A DNA stretch of 64,000 nt, taken from NCBI RefSeq assembly GCF_013367775.1, contig NZ_CP055157.1, positions 2,869,001-2,933,000 on the forward strand, given 5' to 3'. Positions 3,785 through 56,676 of this stretch are shown here, in pieces. Each line of letters starts with the position of its first letter. Within the stretch, counting starts at the first letter, position 1. Below the pieces are notes generated by a model, which was not told the origin of the DNA, searched no databases, and saw only the letters and a list, made by a program, of their open reading frames with translations. A program made the position numbers and the translations under genes. The DNA is from Microbulbifer sp. YPW1. Lineage in GTDB: Bacteria > Pseudomonadota > Gammaproteobacteria > Pseudomonadales > Cellvibrionaceae.

Positions 3785-3832
3785 TTAATATGATCGCTAA
3801 TGACTAAAAATGATCGCTACTGATGGTTTGAT
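3785..3832 (-). promoter_or_regulatory. Putative DeoR-type operator array A (galM)
   Basis: On the plus strand TGAT, TGAC, TGAT and TGAT begin at 3791, 3801, 3811 and 3821, exactly 10 bp apart. The decamer ATGATCGCTA is present twice, 20 bp apart. Read on the minus strand toward galM this is a series of ATCA or GTCA units with CGATCA cores, the same pattern as upstream of rhaEW. The rest of the 246-bp intergenic region (3695-3940) shows no gene. Confidence 0.6.
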
Positions 3833-3940: not shown

Positions 3941-6187
3941 GTGAGAGACTACCGGTTAACCGGCGCTGGTGCGCGCGCTGCGCAGGCCAATGGGCTTGCC
4001 GATGCGCAGTGGTATCAGAGCCCGGTTCCCAAAGCGCAGATGCGTGACTTGCTACAGCGCAAGAACGGCCCCGCTGTGCGCGATACGCTGCTCTGGTTCT
4101 CCCTGCTAGCGCTCTCCGCCTATGCCATGGTGCTGGCGTGGGGTACAGGTTGGTTCTTTCTTCCATTTATGATCTATGCGGTACTCTACGCATCTGTTTC
4201 CGATTCCCGTTGGCATGAGTCCAGTCATGGAACTGCCTTCCGTTCCGACTGGATGAACACCGCGCTCTACGAGATCGCCTCCTTTTTGGTGTTCCGCGAA
4301 TCCACCACCTGGCGCTGGAGCCACGTCCGTCACCATACGGATACGATTATCGTCGGTCGTGACCCGGAGATTGCCAGCCCGCGGCCGGTCAATCGATTTC
4401 AGACGTTGCTCGGCATTCTGAAGCTCAACATGATGTGGGCGGAAGGACGTCGCATGGTGTTGCATGCGCTGGGCAAGCGAACCGAGGATGCGAACGCGTT
4501 TGTACCCGAGCAGGAGTGGCCAAAAATCCATTGGAAGGCGCGTTTATATGTGGCGATCTATCTTGCCGTTATCGCGGCCGCTGTTGTGTTTCAGTCTTGG
4601 TTGCCACTGTTTTTTATCGGGCTGCCAACCGTATTTGGCTCTTGGCTGATCGCAATTTACGGTTACACGCAGCATGCGGGGCTTGCGGAAAACGTTCTGG
4701 ACCACCGCCTGAATAGCCGCACGGTTTATATGAACTGGGTGAACCGCTATCTCTACTGGAACATGAATTATCATGTAGAGCACCACATGTTTCCGCTGGT
4801 GCCCTACCATGCATTGCCACGCCTGCATGCATTGATCAAAGACGATTGCCCTCCCGCATATTCGGGATTGTGGGCGGCGTGGAAGGAAATTATCCCTGCC
4901 CTTTGGAGGCAATCCAGGGATCCGGATTATTTCGTCGAGCGAGAGTTACCTGCTGGCAGTGTAAGTACTTGCGAGGACGCTGTGATTCGGCCTGACGGTG
5001 ATGTCGATGCTGAAGGGTGGGTAAGGGTCGGCACCGCGGATGTGTTGAGGGTGGAAGACGTTGTTCGCGTGGATTTTTGCGGCCATACCTACGCGCTGTA
5101 CCGGACTGCCGAAGGGCGGCTCTTCGCGACCGAGGGAATCTGCACACACGGAAATACGCATCTGGCGGAAGGCTTTGTGAAGGGCACAATTGTCGAGTGT
5201 CCAAAACACAATGGACGCTTTGACATTCGTAATGGCGCCGCGGTGCGAGGGCCTGCATGCAGTGCACTTGAGACGTTCGCGGTGAGAGAGCGTGACGGCC
5301 ACTTGGAGTTGTGTACCCGCCCTAAAGTTGATGAAAAAAATCAGGATCCGACGCGCCGACGCTGGCAATTCCGAGTTGTTGGGAAGCGCAATATCGCGAG
5401 TTTCATCTGTGAGCTGGAGCTCGAACCACTGGCGATAGCACCCGCATTCCGCTATCAGCCCGGCGACTATATTCAGCTTTTAATACCGGCATACGAGCGT
5501 CGCCACCTGCAGTTTGAGCAGGTTGATACACCATTCCAGGATGTCTGGCAGAGCCTTGGAATTTTTGATATTCCGGTAGAAAACGGGCTTGCCTGTAAGC
5601 GGAACTATTCCATCGCGACGAATCCCGCGCGGGATAAAACGATTAAGTTGAATGTGCGCCTGGCTCTGGGGCAAGTGGCTGGAAAGCCTGCGCTGGGTGT
5701 TGGCTCCAGTTATGTTTTCGGATTAACACCGGGCGATGTGATTGAGGCGCAGGGACCTGCTGGGGATTTCCGTATCAATCCCTCGGATGCAGAGATGGTT
5801 TATCTCGGAGGAGGGGCTGGTATGGCCCCACTGCGATCACACATTTCCCACTTGCTGGAAACGGAAAGCAGTGAGCGCAAAATCAGCTTCTGGTATGGGG
5901 CGCGCAGCGAGCAGGAGTTGATCTACGCCGACTATTTCAAGGCACTAATGGATCGCCATGAAAACTTCAGCTTCCATGTGGCCTTATCGGAGTCGGCAGA
6001 TGACACCGGCGAGTTACCCAATGGCTTTATTCACGAGTACCTCTATGAGAACTATCTGCAGTCTCACGAGGCGCCGCAGAAAGTGGAATTCTACCTGTGT
6101 GGTCCGCCCCCGATGATGGCGGCTACTCGGCAGATGCTGGGGGAGCTAAAGGTTCCCGAGTCCCAGATCGCATTCGATGAATTTTGA
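3941..6187 (+). CDS. Fusion of fatty-acid-desaturase-like di-iron oxygenase, Rieske domain and flavin reductase
   Basis: This 748-residue protein appears to carry a whole oxygenase electron chain. Residues about 1-335 are a membrane-bound desaturase/hydroxylase with hydrophobic segments and the three histidine boxes HESSHG (H92), HVRHH (H128) and HVEHH (H278). Residues about 345-455 are a Rieske [2Fe-2S] domain with C401-x-H403 and C420-x2-H423. Residues about 465-748 are an NqrF/FNR-like module with the FAD motif RNYS (about 554), the nucleotide loop GGGAGMAPL (about 623) and the C-terminal LCGPPPM. Electrons should flow NAD(P)H to FAD to Rieske to di-iron. The start is GTG, with GGAGGG nine bases upstream. 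Usually these parts are separate proteins. The substrate is unknown: lipid desaturation or hydroxylation is the default, and O-demethylation of a methylated sugar is speculation from context. The gene is divergent from galM and followed by a strong terminator. Confidence 0.88.
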   Translation: MRDYRLTGAGARAAQANGLADAQWYQSPVPKAQMRDLLQRKNGPAVRDTLLWFSLLALSAYAMVLAWGTGWFFLPFMIYAVLYASVSDSRWHESSHGTAFRSDWMNTALYEIASFLVFRESTTWRWSHVRHHTDTIIVGRDPEIASPRPVNRFQTLLGILKLNMMWAEGRRMVLHALGKRTEDANAFVPEQEWPKIHWKARLYVAIYLAVIAAAVVFQSWLPLFFIGLPTVFGSWLIAIYGYTQHAGLAENVLDHRLNSRTVYMNWVNRYLYWNMNYHVEHHMFPLVPYHALPRLHALIKDDCPPAYSGLWAAWKEIIPALWRQSRDPDYFVERELPAGSVSTCEDAVIRPDGDVDAEGWVRVGTADVLRVEDVVRVDFCGHTYALYRTAEGRLFATEGICTHGNTHLAEGFVKGTIVECPKHNGRFDIRNGAAVRGPACSALETFAVRERDGHLELCTRPKVDEKNQDPTRRRWQFRVVGKRNIASFICELELEPLAIAPAFRYQPGDYIQLLIPAYERRHLQFEQVDTPFQDVWQSLGIFDIPVENGLACKRNYSIATNPARDKTIKLNVRLALGQVAGKPALGVGSSYVFGLTPGDVIEAQGPAGDFRINPSDAEMVYLGGGAGMAPLRSHISHLLETESSERKISFWYGARSEQELIYADYFKALMDRHENFSFHVALSESADDTGELPNGFIHEYLYENYLQSHEAPQKVEFYLCGPPPMMAATRQMLGELKVPESQIAFDEF

Positions 6188-7420: not shown

Positions 7421-8884
7421 TTATGCTTCCGACATGGTCGGTACCGGGGGGCGTGCTTGTTCGTGCTCTCGTATCGCAAGGCGCCATTCGTCACGATAAT
7501 CGAAAAGGCCATTAAGCGAGGTCGGAGTGCAAGTGCGCAGAGTGGAACTCGCGTCGGCTTCGGAACCCAGCGTCAGCATCGCGCAGCCGGTAACCGTGCC
7601 GGTATCATCCTCGGACAAGTAAATCTGCTGTGGCGCACGTAACTGAGCGAGTAGGCCGCAAATAATGGGGTTCTTCAGAAAGGCACCCTCAATAATGATG
7701 TGGCCGCGACTGCCGATGGCAGAGAGTTGGAAATCCAGCATTAACGCGCAATAAAGTGATGCGATAAGTGCGCCGGTGCCGGTGATTACTTCACCGCGAA
7801 TCGTTCCCTGCAGGTCGGCGAAAGGTCCCCCACCGCGGCTAAATGTCGGCAGCGCCATAACCTGTTGGTGGATATAAGCCTGTAATTGCTCCAGAGGTTC
7901 ATCCCCGGCTGCTGCTTGGTCGAGGGGCGAGTCCGTCATGCTGCACAGCGCTTCGTACTCGCGTCCACCCATAAAACGTGCGCAGGCAATTGGGTCGCCG
8001 GCGGCGTCCACGTTGGCGAGCATATCGCGGGATTCCTGCAGGCTGGATAGCTCTGCGCCGTTGGCCATGACGATCGACCATGTCCCGGTGGAGATAACCG
8101 TAAATGGCCTCCCATCACTTGTTGCCCGGTGCCGCCAGTAGCTCGCGTTGCTGTCGTGCACACCGGCATAGATAGCGCAATTTTCTGCCAGGCCCGTCGC
8201 TTTGCAGACCTCAGGAAGGGGAGACGCTATCTTTTGGGTGGCGCTGACTAAAGTGGGGAACAGTGCTCGCCAACCCAGGGTATCCACCAGTGAGGAATAA
8301 TCTTTCTGTCCGGGCGCCCACAGGTCTGTGTGGCAGCCGAGTGATGTGACCTCGTTGCACCGTTCCCCGGTGAGTCGCCACAGCCAGTACTGCGGGTACA
8401 TGACGATGGCGCCCACACGGGAAAAGGCATCGGGAAACTGCCGGGATTGCCAATGTAGCTGGCGTCCCAGGTTCAGGCCGGCGGGCAGGGCAGGTGAGTA
8501 GCTCTCACAAAATTCGGGACGTACGGACGCGTAGTGGGCCGCGGTGTCCTGGCACTCGCGGAAATCCTCATATTCGTAATCCAGCACGGGTAACGCGAGG
8601 CCGTCGCTCTCAAGGTCGGAAGCGTCGGCGTCGTCTCGCAAGCAGGCTGCAGTGGCGCCGTGAGTGGTAATGTTGAGCCGTGTAATCTCAAATTGTTCGG
8701 TAAGCGTGCGAACGTTGTTGCTAAACCACTGCCAGATATAGTCGACATCTGCCTGCGGATAGTAAATGGAAGACATCAGCACACGATTTTTGGCTTCTCG
8801 GGTGGCCACACTTTTCAGGTGCACATCGAGCACCGAAAGCTTTATATGGGTTTTGCCGATATCAAAAATAAGCGTGTATTGCAT
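7421..8884 (-). CDS. rhaB: FGGY-family carbohydrate kinase, probable L-rhamnulokinase
   Basis: This 487-residue cytoplasmic kinase has the FGGY features: an N-terminal phosphate loop FDIGKTHIKLSVLD, the motif GVHDSNASYW carrying the likely catalytic Asp, and the nucleotide-binding STGTWS. The DIGKT start and HDSNAS are typical of the kinase group found beside bifunctional rhamnulose-phosphate aldolases. It should phosphorylate L-rhamnulose to L-rhamnulose-1-phosphate, the substrate of RhaEW. It is divergent from rhaEW across a 428-bp control region holding operator array B, and the esterase follows it on the same strand. L-fuculose or another ketose is an alternative substrate, but the adjacent RhaI and RhaEW make rhamnulose the best guess. 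Confidence 0.85.
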   Translation of the reverse strand: MQYTLIFDIGKTHIKLSVLDVHLKSVATREAKNRVLMSSIYYPQADVDYIWQWFSNNVRTLTEQFEITRLNITTHGATAACLRDDADASDLESDGLALPVLDYEYEDFRECQDTAAHYASVRPEFCESYSPALPAGLNLGRQLHWQSRQFPDAFSRVGAIVMYPQYWLWRLTGERCNEVTSLGCHTDLWAPGQKDYSSLVDTLGWRALFPTLVSATQKIASPLPEVCKATGLAENCAIYAGVHDSNASYWRHRATSDGRPFTVISTGTWSIVMANGAELSSLQESRDMLANVDAAGDPIACARFMGGREYEALCSMTDSPLDQAAAGDEPLEQLQAYIHQQVMALPTFSRGGGPFADLQGTIRGEVITGTGALIASLYCALMLDFQLSAIGSRGHIIIEGAFLKNPIICGLLAQLRAPQQIYLSEDDTGTVTGCAMLTLGSEADASSTLRTCTPTSLNGLFDYRDEWRLAIREHEQARPPVPTMSEA

Positions 8885-9185
8885 GGGGTATTTCTCACCG
8901 CTTCGTGCAAGACACGAGCGAGGCAGAGCGCCTCGTTATGGGTGTCTTTTCATTGTTCTTAGCGGCCCTGGGCGCCGCAATTTCTACGGTTAAAGTAACA
9001 CCAAGTGACCCTCTTAACAATCATTTGCAATCAATACCGTGCGCCCGTGACGAATTCTTGGTTCTGAGTCGTCTAGTGGGGTGTCAGCGTGCGCTTTACG
9101 TCAAAAGATTGGCAATATTAGATGTCTTGTAGGTCGTGCCAGTCGTGCTAGGTGATGCCCGCATGACGTTAAAAAAGCCGGTTTC

Positions 9186-9240
9186 CGATCAAAAATGATC
9201 TGCTCGATCACAATAAATCATTTGCGATCATAATCCTTCA
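9186..9240 (+). promoter_or_regulatory. Putative DeoR-type operator array B in the rhaB/rhaEW control region
   Basis: ATCA-like tetramers occur at 9188, 9198 (ATCT), 9207, 9217, 9227 and 9237 (TTCA). From 9207 on the spacing is exactly 10 bp and three units read CGATCA or AAATCA. The array ends 73 bp before the rhaEW start. The rest of the 8885-9312 intergenic region contains no convincing gene and should hold both divergent promoters. Confidence 0.65.
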
Positions 9241-9312
9241 GTGCCATAATTCGCCCAATCACAAGATGTGAGCGATACAAAAACCAATAAATAAGATTTT
9301 CAGGGTCGAGCT

Positions 9313-11415
9313 ATGATGAGTAAGCCTCTCCAGAGCCTGTGGGACGATTCCCTGGCGAATTCCATGTCTGAGCCCGAGTTGCTCAAATACCGGTCCAATC
9401 TGCTGGGCTCCGACCTGCGCATTACCAATTACGGTGGCGGTAACACTTCAGCCAAAGTCCAGATGAGCGATCCGCTTACCGGCGATGATGTCACCGTGCT
9501 GTGGGTAAAGGGCTCCGGTGGTGACCTCGGGTCCATCGAGCTGGGTGGTTTCTCAACCCTGTATATGGATCGCCTGGAGCAGCTAAAGCAGAAATATCGT
9601 GGCCTGGAGTACGAAGATGAGATGGTCGCACTGCTGTCTCACTGCACTTTCAACCTGAATCCCCGCGCGGCCAGTATTGATACGCCGTTGCACGCCTACA
9701 TTCCCCACACCCATGTAGATCACATGCACCCGGATGCGGCGATTGCCATTGCCTGCACCAAAGACAGTCGTGCACTGACCGAAACGATTTTCGAAGGTGA
9801 AATGGGCTGGTTGCCCTGGCAGCGTCCTGGTTACGACCTGGGTTTGAAGCTTGAGGCCATGGCCAAGTCGGAACCGCACTTAAAAGGTATCGTGCTGGAA
9901 GGGCACGGCATCTTCACCTGGGGTGACACGTCGAAAGACTGCTACCTGAATACTCTGACCATTATTCAGCGCGCAGCGGACTGGCTGGCCAAGAACAACA
10001 CTTCCGCACCTTTCGGGGGCGAGAAGCTCGCACAAACGCTGTCTGCAGACGAGCGCCGCTCCGTGGCGGCACGATTGATGCCACTGGTGCGCGGCAAGGT
10101 CTCCAGCGGTGAGCGCAAGATCGGCCATTTTGACGATTCCGCAGAGGTACTCCAATTCGTAAACTCCGAGCAATTGGGTCCACTGGCCGCACTCGGGACC
10201 TCTTGCCCCGACCACTTCCTCAGGACCAAGATTCGCCCTCTGGTCATCGATTTCGATCCGCTGGCTGCCGATCTGGAATCTGAGCTTGCCCGCTGTGAAT
10301 CCCAGTTGGATGGGCAACTGGCGAGCTATCGTGAGGGTTACGCGGCGTATTACGAGCGCTGCAAGCGCGATACCAGCCCAGCAATGCGCGATGGCAACGC
10401 GGTGATCTACCTGATCCCCGGCGTTGGCATGCTGAGTTTTGCCAAAGATAAAGCCACGGCGCGTATCGCCAGTGAGTTTTATATCAACGCCATCAATGTG
10501 ATGCGCGAAGCGAGCGGCGTTAGCGAGTATGTAGGCCTGGACGAGCAGGAAGCATTCGACATCGAGTATTGGCTGCTCGAAGAGGCCAAACTGCAGCGCA
10601 TGCCCAAGCCGAAGAGCCTGGCTGGCAAGGTGGCGTTTATCACCGGCGGCGCCGGCGGTATCGGCTTTGCTACCGCCAGTCGTCTGCTTCAGGAGGGCGC
10701 CTGTGTGGTACTGGCGGATATCGACGAAGCGTCACTGGCTGAGCGAGGTGCGCAACTTTCCGAGCAGTTCAGTGCGGATGTGGTGCGCACCGTGCGCTGC
10801 GACGTGACGGATGAGGTGTCTGTCGGCCAAGCCCTCGCCGTGGCGGCGGTGGAGTTCGGCGGCGTCGATATCCTGGTGTCTAACGCAGGTATCGCGAGTG
10901 CTGCACCCATCGAGGAAACCAGCATCGAACTGTGGGATCGCAACCTCGACATTCTCGCCAAGGGTTACTTCCTGGTCAGCCGCGAAGGTTTCAAGGTAAT
11001 GAAGCGTCAAAGTCTAGGCGGCTCGGTGATTTTCATTGCCAGTAAAAATGGCTTGGTTGCTTCCCAGAATGCGTCGGCCTACTGTACCGCCAAAGCGGCG
11101 GAGGTCCAGCTGGCACGCTGCGTCGCTCTGGAAGGGGCGCCCATCGGTGTGCGCTGTAATGTGGTGAACCCGGATGCGGTGCTGCGTGGCTCGCGGATCT
11201 GGAGCGGCAAGTGGAAGAAAGAGCGCGCTGACGCCTACAACATGAGCGAAGAGCAGCTTGAAGAGCATTACCGCCAGCGCAGTCTGCTGAAGTTGAACGT
11301 GTTCCCGGAAGATATCGCTGAAGCAGCTTATTTCCTCGCTTCAGACGTGTCATCGAAATCAACCGGTAATATCATCAACGTTGATGCGGGCCACGCGCCT
11401 TCCTTCACTCGTTAA
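9313..11415 (+). CDS. rhaEW: Bifunctional rhamnulose-1-phosphate aldolase / lactaldehyde dehydrogenase
   Basis: This is a 700-residue two-domain enzyme. Residues 1 to about 430 are a class II aldolase; the zinc ligands are seen in HTHVDHMH and the later GHG. Residues about 435-700 are a short-chain dehydrogenase with the Rossmann loop TGGAGGIGFA, the SNAGIAS motif and the catalytic YCTAK. The fusion is known from rhamnose catabolic loci of proteobacteria and other phyla, where it splits L-rhamnulose-1-phosphate into DHAP and L-lactaldehyde and oxidises the latter to L-lactate with NAD. It is the first gene of an apparent operon with rhaI, which begins 51 bp downstream. The start is one of two consecutive ATG codons. 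Array B lies just upstream and should control it. Confidence 0.93.
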   Translation: MMSKPLQSLWDDSLANSMSEPELLKYRSNLLGSDLRITNYGGGNTSAKVQMSDPLTGDDVTVLWVKGSGGDLGSIELGGFSTLYMDRLEQLKQKYRGLEYEDEMVALLSHCTFNLNPRAASIDTPLHAYIPHTHVDHMHPDAAIAIACTKDSRALTETIFEGEMGWLPWQRPGYDLGLKLEAMAKSEPHLKGIVLEGHGIFTWGDTSKDCYLNTLTIIQRAADWLAKNNTSAPFGGEKLAQTLSADERRSVAARLMPLVRGKVSSGERKIGHFDDSAEVLQFVNSEQLGPLAALGTSCPDHFLRTKIRPLVIDFDPLAADLESELARCESQLDGQLASYREGYAAYYERCKRDTSPAMRDGNAVIYLIPGVGMLSFAKDKATARIASEFYINAINVMREASGVSEYVGLDEQEAFDIEYWLLEEAKLQRMPKPKSLAGKVAFITGGAGGIGFATASRLLQEGACVVLADIDEASLAERGAQLSEQFSADVVRTVRCDVTDEVSVGQALAVAAVEFGGVDILVSNAGIASAAPIEETSIELWDRNLDILAKGYFLVSREGFKVMKRQSLGGSVIFIASKNGLVASQNASAYCTAKAAEVQLARCVALEGAPIGVRCNVVNPDAVLRGSRIWSGKWKKERADAYNMSEEQLEEHYRQRSLLKLNVFPEDIAEAAYFLASDVSSKSTGNIINVDAGHAPSFTR

Positions 11416-11466
11416 TCCCGGGTGAAGAACAACACTGAAAACACAATAAAAACAGGATTTCAGGCG

Positions 11467-12759
11467 ATGAACGAACGAATTTCCTCCGCGCTCGTCGACA
11501 AGTGCAACGACGAGCAGCATCAGGCACTGCAACAGGATTACGACGCCCTCGGCAATCAACTGGCCCGTCGCGATATTGATATTGAAGCGGTCACCGCTCA
11601 GGCAGCGTCTTTTGAAGTGGCCGTTCCGTCCTGGGGCACCGGTACCGGCGGTACCCGTTTTGCCCGATTCCCGGGACTGGCAGAGCCGCGTAATATCTTC
11701 GAGAAGCTGGAGGATTGTGCGGTGATCAACCAGCTGACCCGGTGCACCTCGGAGGTTTCCCCACACTTTCCCTGGGACAAGGTGGATGACTTCAATGAGC
11801 TGCGCGAGTTTGCCGACCAGTACGGCCTCGGCTTTACCTGCGTCAACTCCAATACCTTCCAGGACCAGCCTGACCAGAAGCACACCTATAAATACGGCTC
11901 TTTGACCAGCACCAGCGCGGAAACTCGTGCACAGGCCGTGGCGCACAATATCGAATGTATCGAGTGGGGCAAGGCACTTGGCGCGAAAGAGCTGACCGTA
12001 TGGATTGGCGACGGTTCTAACCATCCGGGTCAGCAGCACTTCCAGCGTGGACTCGAGCGCTATCTGGACAGCATGCGCGAGATTTACGCGGCCTTACCGG
12101 ACGACTGGCAGGTCTTTATCGAACACAAGATGTTCGAGCCCGCGTTCTATTCCACTGTCATTCAGGACTGGGGTACCAACGTTCTGTGCGCAATGGAGCT
12201 GGGTGAGAAGGCTAAGTCTCTGGTAGACCTCGGCCACCATGCGCCCAACGTGAATATCGAAATGATCGTTTCGCGTCTGATCCAGTTCAAGAAGCTGGCA
12301 GGTTTCCACTTTAATGACAGTAAGTACGGTGACGACGACCTGGATAGCGGCTCTCTGCACCCTTATCAGCAGTTCCTGATTTTCAACGAGCTGGTGGACG
12401 CCGAGTACCGCAAGCAGGAAGGGTTCGCGCCCTGCTATATGCTGGACCAGTCCCACAATGTGACCGATCCCATCGAGAGCCTGATGAATTCGGCGGAAGA
12501 AGTGCAGCGCTCTTATGTAAAAGCACTGCTTGTAGATCGACCGGCACTGGAAGGCTTCCAGCAGGATAACGATGCGCTGATGGCTTCCAACACCCTGAAG
12601 CAAGCCTTCAATACCGATGTGAGCCCGATACTCGCCATGGCGCGATTCCGCCATGGTGGGGCCATCGCGCCACTGGCGACATACCGCGCTGCGCAGTATA
12701 AGCAGAACCTGGTTGCCGACCGCCCGGCCACGGGTGGTAGCGGTTCCGGGATTGTATAA
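11467..12759 (+). CDS. rhaI: L-rhamnose isomerase, RhaI type
   Basis: This cytoplasmic isomerase of about 430 residues converts L-rhamnose to L-rhamnulose. The sequence matches the RhaI group (xylose isomerase-like TIM barrel), which is distinct from E. coli RhaA. Metal-ligand regions are visible in the order VFIEHKMFEPAFYS, LGHHAPNVN and HFNDSKYGDDDLDSG. The ATG at 11467 is preceded by AGGA at a usable spacing. An upstream in-frame GTG at 11422 would add 15 low-complexity residues and is less likely. It follows rhaEW by 51 bp without a terminator, so the two genes should form one transcript. Together with the kinase and RhaEW the route from L-rhamnose to DHAP and L-lactate is complete. Confidence 0.93.
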   Translation: MNERISSALVDKCNDEQHQALQQDYDALGNQLARRDIDIEAVTAQAASFEVAVPSWGTGTGGTRFARFPGLAEPRNIFEKLEDCAVINQLTRCTSEVSPHFPWDKVDDFNELREFADQYGLGFTCVNSNTFQDQPDQKHTYKYGSLTSTSAETRAQAVAHNIECIEWGKALGAKELTVWIGDGSNHPGQQHFQRGLERYLDSMREIYAALPDDWQVFIEHKMFEPAFYSTVIQDWGTNVLCAMELGEKAKSLVDLGHHAPNVNIEMIVSRLIQFKKLAGFHFNDSKYGDDDLDSGSLHPYQQFLIFNELVDAEYRKQEGFAPCYMLDQSHNVTDPIESLMNSAEEVQRSYVKALLVDRPALEGFQQDNDALMASNTLKQAFNTDVSPILAMARFRHGGAIAPLATYRAAQYKQNLVADRPATGGSGSGIV

Positions 12760-12793
12760 CCGCTGTTCTGTTCGGCGCACGGGTATGCTGCAG

Positions 12794-12842
12794 TTTCAAT
12801 CACGCATGATTGAAAGGATTGAAAGTGCGCCTGGATTGAATG
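12794..12842. promoter_or_regulatory. Palindrome plus direct repeats upstream of the DeoR gene
   Basis: TTTCAATCA-CGCA-TGATTGAAA (12794-12815) is a perfect 9-bp-arm palindrome. GATTGAAAG is present at 12808 and again 10 bp later at 12818, and a related GATTGAATG lies at 12834. The site sits between rhaI and the regulator gene and could be an autoregulatory operator. The 10-bp spacing recalls the other arrays, but the core differs, so the link is tentative. Confidence 0.4.
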
Positions 12843-12989
12843 ATAATGAGTAATTCTGAGTGAATTGACGCGCCAGATGAGTGGGCTGCGGACAAGCGTG
12901 AAAGCCTGTACGCAGCATCCTCTGGACCGAAAGGAAGCGGCGTCACCACTTGGAGTCACACGCTCAAGATCAGACACGGAATCGCCACT

Positions 12990-13790
12990 ATGTTAGAAAA
13001 GCAGCGCCACCAACTGTTGCTGGAAATTCTTGAAGAGCAGCAGTTTGCCAGCGTCGCAGACCTGACTGCGCAGCTGAACTCCTCTGAGGCGACGATTCGT
13101 CGCGACCTGATCAAGCTCAGTAAAGAGGGCCGCCTGGAAAAAATCCGCGGCGGTGCCCAGCGAATTGGCAACCGTCCAGCCGGTGCGCCCAAGACTCATC
13201 TCGCGGGTTCGGCCTTCCTCGTCAATAAAGACAAAATGACTACGGCCAAGCAGGCGATTGCTGCGAAAGCCGTTTCCCTGTGTGAAGAGGGCGAGTTGGT
13301 GATCGTCAATGGCGGCTCCTCAACTTTCATGATGGGCGAGTACCTGACCCAACGGGATGTGAGTGTCCTAACCAACTCTTATTATCTTGCGCAGTACCTG
13401 TGTGAGAACGGCCAGAACCAGGTTACGGTCCCCAGTGGCGAAATTTACCGCAAGCAGGGCATCATTCTGAGTCCGTTTGAAAACGACTCCATCCAGAATT
13501 ACCGCTGCCGCTTGATGTTTACCGGTACCGCCGGTATCGGCGAGTTTGGGGTAATGGAAACTGACTCTCTGATTGTGCGCGCTGAGCAGAAGTTGCGCCG
13601 CCAGTCGGAAAAGCTGGTGGTGCTGGCAGATGGTTCAAAGTTGGGGCAGAAGAGTAACTTCGTCATTTACCCGCTCACTGAAGTAGATATTCTGATTACC
13701 GACGATACCGCAGACCCTCGTGTCATCGAGCAAATTGAGGCAGCCGGTGTTGAGGTGATTACTGTGGAGCTCGAAGCCCTCGCCGCTTGA
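12990..13790 (+). CDS. DeoR-family transcriptional regulator, probable rhamnose-locus repressor
   Basis: This 266-residue protein has the DeoR layout. The N-terminal winged helix-turn-helix (residues about 5-60) includes the recognition segment SSEATIRRDLIKLSKEGRL and the KIRGGAQ wing. The C-terminal sugar-phosphate sensor domain (DeoRC) contains VNGGSSTFMMGEYL and LADGSKLGQKSNF. DeoR proteins usually repress sugar catabolic genes and are released by a phosphorylated intermediate; here rhamnulose-1-phosphate is the natural candidate, which is inference. DeoR-type rhamnose regulators are known in alphaproteobacteria. It follows rhaI by 230 bp and ends in a strong terminator. The 10-bp-phased arrays upstream of six transcription units are its best candidate operators, since DeoR proteins often bind short direct repeats. 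Confidence 0.88.
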   Translation: MLEKQRHQLLLEILEEQQFASVADLTAQLNSSEATIRRDLIKLSKEGRLEKIRGGAQRIGNRPAGAPKTHLAGSAFLVNKDKMTTAKQAIAAKAVSLCEEGELVIVNGGSSTFMMGEYLTQRDVSVLTNSYYLAQYLCENGQNQVTVPSGEIYRKQGIILSPFENDSIQNYRCRLMFTGTAGIGEFGVMETDSLIVRAEQKLRRQSEKLVVLADGSKLGQKSNFVIYPLTEVDILITDDTADPRVIEQIEAAGVEVITVELEALAA

Positions 13791-15828: not shown

Positions 15829-15930
15829 GTTGAGTCTGGCGGGGCTGTCGGCCAGGTTATGCGTGCGCAGACCGGGTTCGCAGTTCCGGTTACTCGCCGC
15901 TGAAACGCTTGACTTTCTGTATTCTAATGG

Positions 15931-15980
15931 TTCATTTTCGTTCGTTATCGATCATACTCGGTCATTTGTGGTCGTAAATA
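15931..15980 (+). promoter_or_regulatory. Putative DeoR-type operator array C (first GH74-like gene)
   Basis: Five consecutive decamers begin TTCA (15931), TTCG (15941), ATCA (15951), GTCA (15961) and GTCG (15971), exactly 10 bp apart, ending 52 bp before the ATG at 16033. It is the most regular array in the window and reads in the direction of the gene. Confidence 0.62.
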
Positions 15981-16032: not shown

Positions 16033-19000
16033 ATGAACATACTCAAACTCAGAAAACGGGTGACGCTGATTCTGGCGTCATTTTTGACACTGCTGTTAAC
16101 GGCGTTGCCACTGGGAGCAAGTGCCCAGTGGACGTCCATAAACCCGGGTGCCGGTGGTCAGGTGCAGGATGTGGTGGCCGACCCGAATATCAATCAGCGG
16201 CTGATCCTGGCCTCTGATATGGAAGGTATTTACGAATCACTCGACAACGGTGAGTCCTGGCATGCCAAGGGCGAACTGCATCAGAACCGGGTGTACGCGG
16301 TGGCCATTCCCGAGCAGTCGGGTAACCAGAAAATGTACGTGGGTACCTTGTTCGGACTGGAAGTGTCCAACGATGGCGGTGACAGTTTCACCCTCGTAGA
16401 AAACACCAAGAAGAAATCCATCGGAGCCATTACCATCCACCCGACCAACAAAAATATCGTATTGGCCGCGGTGGGTTGGAAAGACGACTACGACGATGCC
16501 GGCGGCGGCAACCGCTTTTATAGCCTGTTTGGTATGTCAAAAGGTGGCAAGGTCATCGTCTTCAAGTCAATCGATGGCGGTGCCTCCTGGAGTCAGAAAT
16601 CCACCGCCAACAGTTTTGGTGACCGCAACGTTTTCGCGATGACGTTCAATCCGGCCAATGGCAACGAGGTTTTTCTGGCCTCGGATGCCGGGGTGTTCAG
16701 ATCGAGCAATGCTGGTGATTCCTGGAACCAGGTGAGTGCGCCTGCCGGCACCAACGGCCAGGCGAAAGGGCTGGATGTAAGCCCGGACGGCAAAGTGGTT
16801 TACGCGGTGTATCAAACCAATGCGGCGGCCAACAGCGGGCTCGACCAGGGCGAAAACCTGGAGACTGCCATTTTTGCTTCACGCACATCCAGTATCGCCT
16901 GGCAGAATGTCACCGGAAGCCTGCCGAACTACAGCTTTTGGCAGCCTGAAGTCGACCCTCGCTCTACTGGCAGCGCCCATAAAATGATTGTGTCCATGGA
17001 CCAGGAGCGCAAGGGCGTCTACGAGGCAAGTATTAACTGGAACAGCAGCTACAGCAGTGCTTCCCCCAGCAGTGTTTCCTGGAACCAGGTCTGGACCGAA
17101 AGCGATGTGCTGGACGGTTGGGACGTTGGCAAGCCCAATGCGCGTTTCGCCCATTACACACCCAACTCCGCCAGCTGGGCGCGGGCCATCTGGTCGACGC
17201 AAAACCAGACGATATACCGCGGAGACTGGAACGGTTCCAGCTACAACTGGGTCAATCGCTACAGTTACACCACCAATCAGTATTTTGCCGATTACTACGG
17301 AATCCCCATTGCAACTTACGGTAGCCGCGGCACCGAAAGTACCTACACCTGGGATATCGATGCACACGGTAACTACGTCATCCAGGGGATGGGTGATAAC
17401 GGACCTGTAGAGAGCTGGGATGGTGGCGCCACCTGGAGCAATGTCTGGATGCGCCAGAACGGTTTTCTGTCGGATGTGCAGGCGGTGGAAATTGCCGATG
17501 CCTGGGGTAAAAAAGTGGTACTTGCGCAAATGGCCGCCGGTTTCGGCGGGCATGCCGGCACGGGCAATCTGTATATCAAGCATCTCGACCAGTTTTCGCC
17601 GGCGGACGAGTGGGAATTCTACGTCGGTGGCAGTGAGTGGCGTGGTGGCGTGCCCAACGGCCTCATCAGTGATATTGCCGAGTCACCGGCTAAACCCGGG
17701 AAGGTATTTATTTTCTCCCGTGGCTATGGCCTCTACATGCAAAGTGATGTGGGTTGGGGCTACAACGAGCATGAGCAGGGCAACCAGCCGTGGTTCAGTA
17801 AAATCTCCAACGGTGTAGCCGACCAGATTGCATCGGTCAAAAAAATTGCCCCGCACCCAACCAATGAAAACATTGTCTACCTGAGCTCGGTGAGTGGTGA
17901 TACCGGCGTTTTTAAAGGTGAGTTCGTCAACGACAGCTGGTCCTGGTCGAAGATATACAACGGCGGCGGCTGGGATGCAGAAGTCTATGCATGGGAAAAC
18001 AATGGGCAGGTGATTCTGTTCTATTCGGGCAAGAGCTATCAGGACGGAGACGGTGATCACTTTGTCGGCGTCATCTCTCTGGATGAGGGCGCCACCTGGA
18101 AAACCGTGCTGAAGAGTGCGGATACCCGCGCGCTGACCAGCCACAGCTGGTACAACACCGTGACCGGCGGCAGTAACAGCTACAGCTTCAAGTTCAGCAA
18201 CAAAGGCGGGCTGACCGGCTACGACAACAAGGTGGTCATGGCGCATTACGACCATACCCTGCAGAAAACCTATGCCGTGATGGAGGGGACCATTACCGGC
18301 ACCTCCACCCAGAATGCGAGTGTTTCCTGGGCAGATATTACCGGTGACCTTCACTTTGGCGGCCTGACAACGGCACGGGTGGTTGAGAACGGCGGTGATC
18401 GTTTCCTGTATGTCTCCACCGCAGGTGCCGGTGCCTGGCGCAAGCAGCTGGGCGGGTCGTCCGAGGTGATTCCCACCGGCGTGACCATTAGCGGCTGTCC
18501 CGGTGCGGATCTCTCCGTGGATCAGACAGTCTCCCTGTCTTCAGACGTATCGCCCTCGAACGCAACCAACAAGTCGGTCACCTGGAGTTCATCCAATCCG
18601 GCGGTTGCCACCGTGAATTCCAGCGGATTGGTTTCGGCTGAGGCCGCGGGCTCCGCCACCATTACAGTGACGACGGTGAGTGGTAACCGCAGTGCTACCT
18701 GTCCGGTGTCGGTCGCGGCTGACAGCAGCGATACGCTGGTGACGGTACGCGCACGGATGGCCCTGGGCAGTAGCGATACGCTGCAGTTGCGGGTGGATGA
18801 TGTCACGGTACATTCCTGGACTATTTCCGGCAGCAGTTATGCGGATTACTCCGTGGTCAAGCCGGTCGATGGCAACGTCAAACTGTACTTCCCGGATAAC
18901 GGCACCGATATTGAGGTGGATTATCTGCGGATTGATGGCACCACCTATCAGGCGGAAGATCAGGCCATCAACACCTCCGCGTGGATGAATGGTTCCTGTG

Positions 19001-19776
19001 GTGGCGGTGGCTACGCCCAGATCATGCACTGCCCTGGATACATCGACTTCGGCAACATCAGCGCGGGTGGGGCTGGCCCTGGTGGTATCCCGGTGACCGG
19101 GGTCGCGGTGAACAACTGCTCCAACCCTGCACTCAGTGTTGGCGAAACCTTTGACTTCAATGCCACGGTTTCGCCGGCTGATGCCACGGATTCATCGGTT
19201 ACCTGGAGCTCCAGTAATACCGGTGTCGCCAGTGTGGATGGCGCAGGTGTTGTTACCGCGTTGTCGGCGGGCAGTGCCAGCATTACCATCACCACCAACG
19301 ATGGCGGCTTCGCCAGTGGCTGCTCAGTGAGCGTGACCAGCGGAGGCGGGCAGCCCACCGCGTACCGTTACCTGATGCTCTACGGCTACGGAACCGTGCA
19401 GCTGGATGTGACGATGCAGCAGATCCACTGGATGGTGGGTGGCCAGTCTTACCCGGATCCGAAACTGACCTGGAGCACCAAGTCCCAGGTAACTTCCAGC
19501 ACCAATGGCAGCAACGACTATGCCGCATTCGACAACACCAATGTGGGTTGGAATATCGGGAATAATTTCCCGGCGTGGATCAAGATCGACCTGGGTGCAG
19601 GCAACGAGATTGCGCCCGATGCCATCAAGCTGAAACCCAATGCCGATAATCGGGGTTTCTCGTCCTTTGAGGTCTTTGGCTCCAATAACAACAGTGACTG
19701 GACCTCGATCTACTATAAAAGTGGGCTGACAAGCTCGGACTATTCCGGCCTGACAACCTTCTCATTTTCCAACTGA
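16033..19776 (+). CDS. Secreted GH74-like tandem beta-propeller enzyme with Ig-like, CBM60-like and discoidin-like domains
   Basis: This 1247-residue exported protein has a signal peptide of about 32 residues ending near ASAQ. Residues about 33-815 form Asp-box repeats (SxDGGxxW type) arranged as in the paired seven-bladed propellers of GH74. Asp in ASDMEG (D62) and in GMGDNGPVESWDGG (D455) match the positions and spacing of the two catalytic Asp residues of GH74. A Big_2 Ig-like domain follows (from about 816), then a CBM36/60-like domain (VRARMALGSSDTLQLRVDD), a second Big_2 domain and a C-terminal F5/8-type (CBM32-like) domain. Two paralogues lie at 28664 and 51575. Classical GH74 enzymes cleave xyloglucan, but the DMEG variant and rhamnose/mannose context point to another polysaccharide backbone. 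It is monocistronic: array C precedes it and a terminator follows it. Confidence 0.82.
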   Translation: MNILKLRKRVTLILASFLTLLLTALPLGASAQWTSINPGAGGQVQDVVADPNINQRLILASDMEGIYESLDNGESWHAKGELHQNRVYAVAIPEQSGNQKMYVGTLFGLEVSNDGGDSFTLVENTKKKSIGAITIHPTNKNIVLAAVGWKDDYDDAGGGNRFYSLFGMSKGGKVIVFKSIDGGASWSQKSTANSFGDRNVFAMTFNPANGNEVFLASDAGVFRSSNAGDSWNQVSAPAGTNGQAKGLDVSPDGKVVYAVYQTNAAANSGLDQGENLETAIFASRTSSIAWQNVTGSLPNYSFWQPEVDPRSTGSAHKMIVSMDQERKGVYEASINWNSSYSSASPSSVSWNQVWTESDVLDGWDVGKPNARFAHYTPNSASWARAIWSTQNQTIYRGDWNGSSYNWVNRYSYTTNQYFADYYGIPIATYGSRGTESTYTWDIDAHGNYVIQGMGDNGPVESWDGGATWSNVWMRQNGFLSDVQAVEIADAWGKKVVLAQMAAGFGGHAGTGNLYIKHLDQFSPADEWEFYVGGSEWRGGVPNGLISDIAESPAKPGKVFIFSRGYGLYMQSDVGWGYNEHEQGNQPWFSKISNGVADQIASVKKIAPHPTNENIVYLSSVSGDTGVFKGEFVNDSWSWSKIYNGGGWDAEVYAWENNGQVILFYSGKSYQDGDGDHFVGVISLDEGATWKTVLKSADTRALTSHSWYNTVTGGSNSYSFKFSNKGGLTGYDNKVVMAHYDHTLQKTYAVMEGTITGTSTQNASVSWADITGDLHFGGLTTARVVENGGDRFLYVSTAGAGAWRKQLGGSSEVIPTGVTISGCPGADLSVDQTVSLSSDVSPSNATNKSVTWSSSNPAVATVNSSGLVSAEAAGSATITVTTVSGNRSATCPVSVAADSSDTLVTVRARMALGSSDTLQLRVDDVTVHSWTISGSSYADYSVVKPVDGNVKLYFPDNGTDIEVDYLRIDGTTYQAEDQAINTSAWMNGSCGGGGYAQIMHCPGYIDFGNISAGGAGPGGIPVTGVAVNNCSNPALSVGETFDFNATVSPADATDSSVTWSSSNTGVASVDGAGVVTALSAGSASITITTNDGGFASGCSVSVTSGGGQPTAYRYLMLYGYGTVQLDVTMQQIHWMVGGQSYPDPKLTWSTKSQVTSSTNGSNDYAAFDNTNVGWNIGNNFPAWIKIDLGAGNEIAPDAIKLKPNADNRGFSSFEVFGSNNNSDWTSIYYKSGLTSSDYSGLTTFSFSN

Positions 19777-19991: not shown

Positions 19992-20045
19992 TGATCAAAT
20001 TCAATCGAAATAAATCATAATAAATCATTGCGATCGCTGCATCTC
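19992..20045 (+). promoter_or_regulatory. Putative DeoR-type operator array D (GH127-like gene and GPH symporter)
   Basis: ATCA, ATCG, ATCA and ATCA start at 19994, 20004, 20014 and 20024, exactly 10 bp apart, followed by ATCG at 20033 and ATCT at 20041. Two units read AAATCATAA and AAATCATTG. The array ends about 95 bp before the likely ATG. The remaining intergenic sequence (19837-20138) shows no gene. Confidence 0.6.
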
Positions 20046-25142: not shown

Positions 25143-25385
25143 GCCTGATTATGAGGACTGTAAAAAAATCATTGATGATTGGTTTTGATTTTATTCTAAA
25201 GGGTTGAGCAGATGGGTTGGCGCTCAAAACTTCAATTTGTTAAAAAAGAGGTTTGATGTTTGGGTGCCGCTGGCAGAGGGATCGGCCCGCATTCAGTGCG
25301 CTTGCGGTGCTAAACCTGCCTGTCTAACTGGGCACAACAGACTTTACTGAGCGATAAATGCTCCATGCTCGGAAAAAAACAAAAA

Positions 25386-25420
25386 TGATTGCAAATGACT
25401 CCAAATGATTCATAATCGTC
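25386..25420 (-). promoter_or_regulatory. Putative DeoR-type operator array E (TonB-dependent receptor), inverted
   Basis: AATGATT, AATGACT and AATGATT are spaced exactly 10 bp apart (TGA cores at 25386, 25396 and 25406). Read on the minus strand they give AATCATTTGG, AGTCATTTGC and AATCATTTTT, the same half-site as the other arrays but pointing away from the downstream gene. The rest of the 370-bp gap 25143-25512 shows no gene. Confidence 0.55.
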
Positions 25421-32147: not shown

Positions 32148-32188
32148 ATCATTTCCATTCAGTTGTTGACTGCTTGTGATTGGAAATG
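32148..32188. promoter_or_regulatory. Inverted repeat upstream of the SapC operon
   Basis: CATTTCCATTCA (32150-32161) and TGATTGGAAATG (32177-32188) are inverted repeats with one mismatch, separated by 15 bp. ATCA at 32148 and TTCA at 32158 are 10 bp apart, as in the phased arrays, but the series stops there. It lies about 170 bp before the SapC start and may be an operator. The remaining gap 32038-32356 shows no gene. Confidence 0.4.
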
Positions 32189-32356
32189 CTAATTTTTGCT
32201 ACACAATAACGATGAATATAGCGATGACCCAGCCCTCGATGGCTCCTCGGATTCTTTGATTTTTGTAACCGGATTGACCGCAGTTGTTGAACATATGTGC
32301 GGGTAAATTCCTTACTGGATCGTTGTCGGGTCTCGCGCTTACAAGCGGTGAGAATA

Positions 32357-34197: not shown

Positions 34198-37100
34198 ATG
34201 AGAAGAGATCCCACAGTGAAAATTAAAAGAAAAAAAATCAACGGAAAGAACGAGCTTGGAGCATCTGTAATCGCTGTCGCACTGCTCAGTAGTGTTTTAG
34301 CCGGGTGTGGTGGAGGCTCGGGCAATGCTGGAGAGCAGGAAGCAACAGTAACTCCCCCTCCTGTAACGAGTCCCCCGGATGATGCGCCAGCTGCTTGGTC
34401 TTTCCAGAACATAAGCGCCTCTGCGGGACTGCGCCACCGTTGGGGGATCAATGGCCAGGAAGGTAGAGGCACTGAAGCGGAGTTCTTTGCTGGCGGTGTC
34501 GCAGTGGGGGATTTCGACAATGATGGACTTATTGATATTTTCGTTGATTCAGGGAATTTAGAACCGAGCAAACTTTACAGAAACCTGGGTAACAATCGTT
34601 TCGAAGATGTTGCGGGAGCTGCGGGTGTAAAGCTCGAGAACCACCGCGGGAGTGGGCCTACTTTTGCTGACGTCAATGGCGATGGTTGGTTAGATCTTTT
34701 CGTTGGCGGGATAGAGGGTGATGGAAACAAACTCTTTATCAATAATGGTGACGGGACGTTTGTAGATGCAACGCGTGAATCCGGGCTCATTATGGAAGCT
34801 CCGAACACTGTGTCTGCAAGTTTTGGCGACATCAATGGTGACGGATTCCTTGACCTGGCGGTGTCACACTGGGGAAATGATGTAAAGCCGAATACCGAGA
34901 CTATTTGGCTTGGAAACGGAGATGGTTACTTCGTTGACGCGAGTGAAACCAGTGGTATCGCAAGCCAGTTGCATTCGCCCGGTGCAGGTGGAATTGCGGG
35001 AGTCAAAGATTATTCCTTCACCCCGACGTTTGCTGACTTTGATAATGATGGCTGGCCTGATCTCGCCATGGTTGGGGATTACGGAACCAGTAAATATTTT
35101 TTGAATGATGGGTCTGGTCGATTTATCGACGCGACAGGTTCGCAACTCGGTGACGAATTCGGGATGGGGAGCGCCATCGCCGACTACGACAACGACGGAT
35201 ACCTGGATTGGTTTATTACTTCAATCTACGAAACGAATGCATTTGGCACCGTTAAGCAAGGTAATCGTTTAAATCGAAACGGTGGCGGCTACTTCGATGA
35301 TGTAACGTACTCGGCGCGTGTCGAAGATGGTGGCTGGGGTTGGGCTGCTTGCTTTGCGGACTTCAATAACGATGGCCACCTGGACCTGTTCCACACAAAT
35401 GGTTGGGATGAAGACTCTTTGTATGCGAGTGAAACAGTAGATTATAAAAACGATGTCAATAGGCTGTTCATCAATAATGGTGCTGGAGTTTTCTCAGACG
35501 AAGCGACAGAGCGTGCTGTGGATGATTCCAGGCAGGGGCGGGGTGTGTCGTGCTTTGACGCGGATAACGACGGTGATATCGATATTTTGGTGGTGGAAAA
35601 TAATATCGATGGAAATGCGCTTGTTCTGTATGAAAATGTCGGAGGTAACGAAGCCGGCAATCAGCTGAGCGTCTCCCTGCAAGCCTTGGGCGGTAATACC
35701 GCAGCCGTAGGATCCCGGGTGTTTGTTACCGCTGGGGGCGTAACGCAAATGCGTGAACTCCAAATTGGCAGTAACTTTACGAGTCAGAACCCGCAAATAC
35801 TCTATTTCGGCCTCGGCGACTCCGAAACAGTTGACATACTGCGTGTCCGCTGGCCTGACGGCACAGAAGAACAAATCGGCAACTTCCCGGCCAATCAGTG
35901 CCTGCGCATTTCGCCAGCCGGAGACGAGGTGCCGTTGGCAGGTGATCACTGCATGGTGCCTGCAGAGGAATGGCAGCCCGTGGAAGGGGAAGACCCCTCG
36001 CCTGACGATTCTCCCGCAGAGCCGCCGCTGGCAACGCCGGGTGTCGGCGTTGATGCAAAAGACGTGGCGCCATCAGTGGCCCGTCAGTGGAGCGAGGTTC
36101 TGCTGGAGGGCGTGCGCAACGACTTCGCCCGCCCCACCGTGCATGCGCGCAACCTGTTCCACATTTCTGCGGCCATGTACGATGCATGGGCAGAACTCAG
36201 TGACGCCGGCGCGCAGCACTATCTTCTCGGCCAAACCCTTAACCAGTTTAGCTGTGCGCTTGATGCCCACAATATTCCTCGCTCCTTGCCTGCGCAGCAA
36301 ACCGCTGTGTCCTATGCTGCGTACCGGATAATTGAGCATCGCTTCTTCCGTTCACCGGGTAAAGCGCACACCATGGCGCTGGCGGATGAGCTGATGGAGT
36401 CATTGGGATTGGACCCGCAGTTTGTTGCCAAAGACTACCGCACCTACGGTGCCGCGGCGCTTGGTAATCATGTGGCCGACTGTTACATACAGTACGGTCT
36501 CCAGGATGGCGCAAACGAGCAGGGCAGCTATGCCAACCTGTTTTATGATCACATCAACGGCATTATCGAGCCGGAAAAACCCGGTAACCCCAATGCCATT
36601 GCCAACAGCGACTGGAACAGTTGGCAGCCCATCTCCCTGAGTGAATCGATCGACCAGTCTGGCAACCTGGTGAGCGATACACCGCCTTTCTTGAGCCCGG
36701 AGTGGGGCAATGTATTGCCGTTCTCGCTGACGGATGGTGATGCGTCCATTCAGACCCGTGCCGGTGATACCTATAAAGTGTATTTCGATCCGGGCAAGCC
36801 GCCGCTGCTGGGCACCTCGACATCCGATTTCTACCAGTGGAACTTCGCCCTGGTTGCGGCCTGGTCAGCGCATCTGGATCCCGCCGATGATGTATTGATT
36901 GATATTTCCCCTCGCAGTATCGGTAATAACCCGGCGTTCCCGGCTGCGGCAACGGTTGCGGAATACGAGCAGTTCTATCAGTTCGAAAATGGCGGTGATG
37001 CCAGCCGGGGTTACGATGTGAACCCCGTTACCGGCGAGCCCTACGCACCTCAAATGGTGAAACGCGCGGATTACGCGCGGGTACTTGCGGAATTCTGGGC

Positions 37101-45209: not shown

Positions 45210-45270
45210 TTCAAAGTTGAGCGCTTACAATCATAATAGATCAAGGGTAAGCTTAAGTAATCATTTGATG
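45210..45270 (+). promoter_or_regulatory. Putative DeoR-type operator array F between mannose isomerase and ROK kinase genes
   Basis: TTCA at 45210 and ATCA at 45230, 45240 and 45260 fall on one 10-bp grid; grid positions 45220 and 45250 carry AGCG and AGCT. A further ATGATTGATT lies at 45193 near the isomerase start. The array sits between divergent genes and could control both. Confidence 0.55.
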
Positions 45271-56503: not shown

Positions 56504-56650
56504 GATCGCCTACTTATTATTTTTGTGAGTGTGCGGGCCGGCGTTCGGCCCCCGAGTGGTCATCCACTTCTGGCACGAGCTACCGAAACGGCAGGCAGCT
56601 GGCGGTGGCGGAGTGACCGATACCGCGGCAATCAGTATATTTCAAAAGCA

Positions 56651-56676
56651 ATCACAATCAACTCATATTGAGTCAA
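56651..56676. promoter_or_regulatory. Weak phased-repeat candidate upstream of the GH74-like/GH125/GH43 operon
   Basis: ATCA at 56651, CTCA at 56662 and GTCA at 56672 are spaced 11 and 10 bp, resembling the other arrays but less regular. It is about 150 bp upstream of the start at 56503. The rest of the 299-bp gap 56504-56802 shows no gene. Confidence 0.3.

Follow-up and report, generated by a model that had tools for sequence, protein, structure and literature searches.

The question raised by this locus is which protein reads the rows of short, regularly spaced repeats that lie in front of its rhamnose genes and of the polysaccharide operons around them. The locus is contained in a stretch of 64,000 nucleotides from Microbulbifer sp. 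YPW1, which is called the window here and whose numbering is used throughout. Several things can be observed directly in the DNA, namely the arrays themselves, how rare they are elsewhere, that they are conserved, that they go with a regulator gene and that they overlap predicted promoters. It is highly probable, as judged from sequence, that the arrays are operators of a DeoR-family rhamnose repressor, RhaR, encoded at 12990-13790.

Regulator and rhamnose genes

The gene of the proposed repressor is found together with genes of rhamnose catabolism:

7421..8884, minus strand: FGGY-family kinase, probable rhamnulokinase rhaB by context; the NCBIfam rhamnulokinase model scores far below cut-off
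9313..11415, plus strand: rhaEW, bifunctional rhamnulose-1-phosphate aldolase/lactaldehyde dehydrogenase; TIGR02632 and NF006189 above cut-off
11422..12759, plus strand: rhaI, L-rhamnose catabolism isomerase; TIGR02629 above cut-off
12990..13790, plus strand: DeoR-family regulator of 266 aa, proposed RhaR; HTH_DeoR (PF08220) and DeoRC (PF00455), both above the Pfam cut-off

No NCBIfam equivalog model reached its cut-off with the regulator, and an identity as UlaR (NF010034) was rejected at 215.8 bits, under the curated cut-off of 244. A single further DeoRC protein was found in the window's genome. The residues around the recognition helix (SEATIRRD) are nearly invariant across the set of regulators, alphaproteobacterial members included. 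The solved structures matched by sequence are 7l6l (a deoxyribose operon repressor) in the sensor region only and 4r1h, weakly, in the helix-turn-helix region (E 0.008); neither is listed as a complex with operator. The features of a DeoR-family RhaR are present, namely the domains, the linkage and co-occurrence with rha genes, and a candidate direct-repeat operator of 10-11-bp period upstream of rha genes.

Candidate operator arrays in the window

Direct reading of the DNA confirmed rows of (A/G)ATCA-type words upstream of all six units named by the first-pass annotation (galM, rhaEW, ORF 16033, the GH127-like gene, the TonB receptor and the AGE/ROK pair) and added five further candidate rows that it had missed. 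The sites are as follows, G028 being a congener and G127 and G129 members of a second genus:

3791..3825, minus strand: four-unit array between the divergent galM (minus) and desaturase-Rieske-reductase (plus) genes
9019..9033, plus strand: two-unit array in the rhaB-rhaEW interval, facing rhaB and about 135 bp upstream of it; unit 2 is degenerate in G028
9187..9201, plus strand: upstream pair GATCA/GATCT on the rhaEW side, words at 9187 and 9197, 1 bp off the phase of the main array
9206..9240, plus strand: array of rhaEW-rhaI and candidate RhaR operator; its four units keep a 10-bp grid, it runs into the predicted promoter at 9222-9250, and it is kept in G028
12792..12876, strand not assigned: conserved block before the regulator gene, degenerate units at 9- and 10-bp steps; matrix match at 12861 on the minus strand
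15930..15974, plus strand: five degenerate units upstream of ORF 16033-19776
19993..20027, plus strand: four-unit array of the GH127-like gene
25176..25190, minus strand: second, weaker array of the TonB-dependent receptor, two units; matrix match at 25190
25386..25410, minus strand: three-unit array of the TonB-dependent receptor, overlapping the predicted promoter at 25389-25416
32167..32191, minus strand: weak array upstream of SapC; G028 and the second-genus members G127 and G129 have matching sites
45229..45263, plus strand: array between the divergent AGE-family epimerase (minus) and ROK kinase (plus) genes, kept in G028
56630..56654, plus strand: weak array upstream of the 1642-aa ORF at 51575-56503 (minus), kept in G028

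The clearest rows are those of rhaEW, galM/desaturase, the GH127-like gene and the TonB receptor (25386..25410). The rhaEW array reads GATCA at 9206, AATCA at 9216, GATCA at 9226 and CTTCA at 9236. The exact 10-bp grid claimed at first holds for most of the rows but not everywhere, as the pair at 9187/9197 is shifted by 1 bp against the phase of 9206-9240 and the AGE/ROK array, with words at 45229, 45239 and 45259, has its third slot empty. The second word of the 9187..9201 pair is not kept in G028. The block at 12792..12876 is probably an autoregulatory site of the regulator gene. Two gene labels were affected as well: Pfam gives Big_2 and F5/F8-C domains for ORF 16033 in place of the GH74-like assignment, and the GH127 match of the GH127-like gene is present but below cut-off.

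The gene that shares its array region with galM codes for a fusion of 748 aa (3941-6187) with fatty-acid-desaturase, Rieske and FAD/NAD reductase domains, which perhaps serves the oxidative removal of a sugar modification. Elsewhere inside the cluster, at 34198-39655, two adjoining FG-GAP/ASPIC-UnbV proteins are encoded, the first with a weak vanadium-peroxidase-type match at its C-terminus.

Excess of the arrays over chance

Runs of at least two (A/G)ATCA words at 10 bp occur six times in the window on both strands, against 0-2 at spacings of 6-9 and 11-14 bp and five at 15 bp. Across all 4.58 Mb of the genome, exact pairs with the 10-bp spacing number 44 (reversed-pattern control, 3), and seven of these pairs fall inside the 64-kb window, one of them in coding DNA at 24868. 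With three units and at most one mismatch the whole genome holds only seven matches (control, 0), and five of them lie in the window, where they represent four distinct arrays, those of rhaEW, galM/desaturase, the GH127-like gene and the TonB receptor. When four TCA units with up to one mismatch are sought, the genome gives 10 matches (control, 6), four of them in the window, including the sole two exact ones. Hence, pattern alone is enough to single out four of the six arrays; that of ORF 16033 emerges in the looser search and that of AGE/ROK as a pair. For runs of two loose tetramers ([AGT]TCA, ATC[AG]) the 10-bp spacing is not enriched in the window, where 25 pairs of [AGT]TCA lie at this distance vs up to 34 at other spacings. 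The signal emerges with (A/G)ATCA and with rows of at least three units, so that the loosest wording of the first-pass annotation, which had counted [AGT]TCA words, overstates the case while its claim of arrays does not.

A 10-column matrix was further built from 74 units in 28 of 46 regions upstream of rhaEW or deoR in other genomes (23 family relatives and five alphaproteobacteria), excluding the window's genome and its near twin G028. Since it was seeded on (A/G)ATCA pairs, it tests the place and the spacing of the repeats and not the word itself. Three-unit scores of at least 9 were obtained 11 times in the 64-kb window vs once in a 400-kb sample of whole DNA of its genome, and none is listed at this score for the 20 kb flanking the window on either side. 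All 11 matches are wholly intergenic, where intergenic DNA makes up 10% of the window by the ORFs used. When overlapping strands are merged, 10 matches remain at 10 bp, with 0-2 at the other spacings from 6 to 25 bp except for four at 20 bp; 30 Markov-1 windows gave an average of 0.17 matches and a maximum of one. The expectation that such arrays are rare elsewhere in the genome was therefore upheld, for patterns over the whole genome and for 400 kb of whole DNA rather than for annotated intergenic DNA alone. Beyond the six named units, the matrix matched at 12861 (regulator promoter), 25190 (TonB), 45222 on the minus strand (AGE side), 32191 (SapC) and 56630 (1642-aa ORF).

Conservation in a congener and in a second genus

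In G028 the same cluster is present in the same gene order, with cluster proteins 71-98% identical and the regulator 98% identical. Arrays are kept there at rhaEW, galM/desaturase, ORF 16033, the GH127-like gene, TonB, AGE/ROK, SapC and the 1642-aa ORF, as is the block before the regulator, and much of the surrounding intergenic DNA has diverged. A 26-bp stretch of the GH127-like array (19998-20023) is identical although the DNA around it has diverged, and at galM a unit AGTCA of the window is GATCA in G028 while the spacers differ. These changes of unit and spacer at galM indicate that the word and the phase are conserved and not just the stretch. The G028 stretch aligned with 25176..25190 has two TGATT words 10 bp apart but no matrix match. 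As a separate observation, G028 has two adjoining homologs of the 1642-aa ORF (L159:1492-9696), 95% and 74% identical, and within the aligned stretches an upstream array is found only at the copy at 1492.

In the second genus, where the gene order is different, matches occur upstream of rhaEW, rhaB, galM/desaturase, ROK, ORF 16033, the regulator and SapC. Where the fetched stretch contained them, the rhaEW and deoR regions of this genus had been part of the matrix training set.

These comparisons bear on the reading in which only the rha arrays belong to RhaR, and some of those at polysaccharide operons (TonB receptor, ORF 16033, AGE/ROK, 56630) serve another regulator with a similar word, for instance the AraC-family protein at 56803-58074 or one encoded outside the window. 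The units at ORF 16033 are indeed rich in GTCA/TTCG and score low with the matrix (13.7), and AraC proteins, one of which is encoded in the window, use direct repeats too; those of AraC-type rhamnose regulators have a period of 21 bp in the account of PMC3870299. However, the period here is 10 bp and not 21, a matrix derived from the rhaEW/deoR regions of other genomes alone detects all of these arrays, and the second-genus counterparts (galM/desaturase, ROK, SapC, ORF 16033) also carry matches. A division of the arrays among several regulators is for these reasons improbable, and RhaR is preferred as the reader of all of them.

Position relative to predicted promoters

A consensus promoter and an array are present together in 27 of the family regions, and the two overlap, for the best promoter, in 21 of these, where random placement would give 4.5; the other 23 of the 50 regions were dropped for want of an array or a consensus promoter. 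In eight genomes (G024, G035, G092, G094, G096, G107, G108 and G109) the array itself supplies TACAAT or TATAAT 17 bp from TTGACC. For the 12 gene sides of the window, at least one overlapping promoter among the best three was found at eight, namely rhaEW, desaturase, galM, TonB, ROK (by its second-best promoter), the regulator, SapC and the 1642-aa ORF. At rhaB none of the predicted promoters considered overlaps the array, the best standing about 80 bp off it, and no promoter was scored for ORF 16033, the GH127-like gene and AGE. The placement of the arrays thus appears to be mostly that of repressor sites.

The distance at rhaB and the better of the two predicted ROK promoters, which is free of the array, would suit an RhaR that activates, or acts in both directions, at some arrays instead of being a simple repressor. 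We regard this as quite unlikely, because most arrays lie on a predicted promoter, because the rhizobial RhaR is described as a DeoR-type negative regulator in PMC9025865, and because DeoR-family sites with mapped starts in Caldicellulosiruptor, one of them with a tandem-repeat structure, occupy repressor positions according to PMC8579813. Simple repression by RhaR is retained here as the probable mode.

Co-occurrence and spacing in relatives

The DeoR-family protein at 12990-13790, already proposed at first pass as the natural candidate, appears well supported as the regulator by its distribution: the regulator (E 1e-40) and RhaEW (E 1e-100) are present in the same 25 of 144 family genomes (hypergeometric p 1.6e-28, for genomes that are mutually related). 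The regulators of G085 and G098, two of these 25, reach no more than 34-40% identity and are perhaps not genuine orthologs. In 20 of 24 loci of relatives (L056-L079) rhaEW and the regulator lie on one fetched stretch of 11-20 kb. When the 360 bp in front of rhaEW or deoR are searched, two exact (A/G)ATCA words 10 bp apart turn up in 29 of the 50 regions, belonging to 23 of the 25 genomes (21 of 23 without the window's genome and G028), in agreement with the expectation that relatives keeping deoR also keep the arrays. Pairs at other spacings from 6 to 25 bp occur in 0-7 of the 25 genomes, except for 17 at 20 bp, i.e. two turns. The strict pair is absent in G123 and G134, and in G123 AATCA and AGTCA can be seen by eye 10 bp apart.

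Exact three-unit arrays, wherever in the genome, occur in 19 of the 25 regulator genomes and in 14 of the 119 that lack the regulator (Fisher p 3e-10, the genomes again being mutually related), which leaves six regulator genomes without one. Pentanucleotide microsatellites are included in three of the 14 regulator-less genomes (G031, G055 and G088), and in several of the 19 (e.g. G098, G114 and G123) the exact arrays are on contigs other than that of the regulator and not beside rha genes. The idea that no specific regulator is involved and that the arrays bend the DNA or reflect its composition, for which the AT-richness of the units and their phasing at one helical turn could be quoted, is hardly credible, as the presence of arrays tracks the regulator gene, the word is kept while spacers change (e.g. 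at galM) and Markov-1 windows average 0.17 matches against 10.

The spacing is not strict in front of the regulator gene itself, since upstream of deoR in 15 named loci (L109-L123) pairs occur 0 times at 10 bp, six times at 9 bp and twice at 11 bp, and the autoregulatory site may follow a looser spacing rule. The deoR-rhaEW intergenic region of Catenovulum showed no clear 10-bp row by eye, and at the plasmid locus of Pseudoalteromonas sp. KG3 no rhaEW is listed within 10 kb.

Likeness to known rhamnose regulators

The rhizobial RhaR (R. leguminosarum, S. meliloti; rhaDI/rhaRSTPQUK operator) is 41-43% identical to the regulator and is encoded beside rhaEW and rhaI as here. In loci of Rhizobium, Sinorhizobium, Paracoccus, Martelella and Phyllobacterium (from a plasmid collection, five of the 30 listed matches of 2932 records) the 41-43% identical protein adjoins rhaI and the genes of the aldolase-dehydrogenase and of rhamnose transport. 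All five alphaproteobacterial RhaR intergenic regions contain, on at least one strand, two (A/G)ATCA words spaced by 10 bp; the word is taken from our own reading of rhizobial DNA and not from the logo of PMC3870299. The shared protein and the intergenic pairs tie word, phase and protein together across two classes. When the R. laguerreae protein is compared with the window's genome, the regulator is its best match (E 1.7e-67) and the only other DeoR-family match is at 8e-22. This best match, the shared gene context and the shared operator word favour orthology, and the regulator may well be an ortholog of the rhizobial RhaR, the reverse comparison covering the plasmid collection only. The rhizobial regulon consists of two divergent operons with an ABC transporter, whereas here about 11 sites are spread over 53 kb of genes for TonB receptors, sulfatases and glycosidases, and the Pfam scan of 35 window proteins showed no ABC transporter.

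The first-pass annotation knew of no described operator of this form for rhamnose genes, which is contradicted by the sections of PMC3870299 (2013) on DeoR-family RhaR. The motifs of four lineages differ there in sequence and have in common imperfect direct repeats of 10-11-bp period, and at least four non-orthologous DeoR-type RhaR groups are counted. Moreover, the RhaR of Chloroflexus aurantiacus bound in EMSA to a 38-bp row of four sites, binding being abolished by L-rhamnulose; its four repeats, likewise direct and in a row, precede a rha gene, but the unit word is TCGAAA. Direct and not inverted repeats are also used by the AraC-type rhamnose regulators, which differ in protein family and in their 21-bp period, and by BldC, again of a different protein family. 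The type of operator is already known from this precedent. What is probably new is the lineage and the reach to TonB-receptor, sulfatase-cluster and glycosidase genes and to the ulvan plasmid pAlt76, the control of the wider polysaccharide operons being a prediction. RhaR is not named as a regulator of marine or ulvan clusters in the regulation passages of PMC6431674, PMC13050008 and PMC7953866, in a literature set that covers few subscription journals.

Proposed mode of regulation

In the absence of inducer, RhaR subunits would sit side by side on consecutive 10-bp repeats, with one winged helix-turn-helix per repeat unit and all of them on the same face of the DNA. A row of subunits on one face had been suggested at first pass, and one subunit per repeat fits the evidence. 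Such a row would span the -35/-10 region and block RNA polymerase. Once rhamnose has been taken up and isomerised (and phosphorylated), the intermediate would bind to the DeoRC sensor domain and RhaR would be released, so that RhaR alone could open the rhamnose catabolic genes together with the surrounding polysaccharide-uptake and -degradation operons. Binding, stoichiometry, repression and inducer are here deduced from the arrangement of sites and genes. For the RhaR of B. subtilis, in work ascribed to Hirooka in 2015, the effector is said to be rhamnulose-1-phosphate.

Wider meaning and the ulvan plasmid pAlt76

We lean slightly towards a broader view for marine Alteromonadales and Cellvibrionaceae-like bacteria, in which RhaR would be the master switch of whole rhamnose-polysaccharide systems and not a local repressor. 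One cytoplasmic catabolic intermediate, one repressor and many helical arrays of 3-5 units would jointly open TonB receptors, sulfatases, rhamnosidases and other glycosidases, and pAlt76 would have its own switch with about 16 sites. The arrays define a testable regulon for the use of rhamnose polysaccharides in marine gammaproteobacteria. Further, they offer a natural operator set (3 to 5 units, conserved phase, variable spacers) in which the reading of direct repeats by the DeoR family can be studied.

The regulation of pAlt76 (Alteromonas sp. 76-1, NZ_LR136959.1) had been called undetermined. This plasmid codes for a 56% identical regulator together with an FGGY kinase, rhaEW and rhaI. The matrix, which was not trained on it, finds 16 three-unit arrays (score at least 14) at 10 bp, with 0-2 at the other spacings from 6 to 25 bp and six at 20 bp. 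Fifteen of the 16 are wholly intergenic, where intergenic DNA is 12.6% by the deposited genes (a table that is possibly incomplete). The arrays adjoin three TonB receptors, an alpha-L-rhamnosidase, sulfatases, GH88 and GH43 genes, a sugar kinase-TRAP operon, the FGGY kinase and rhaEW.
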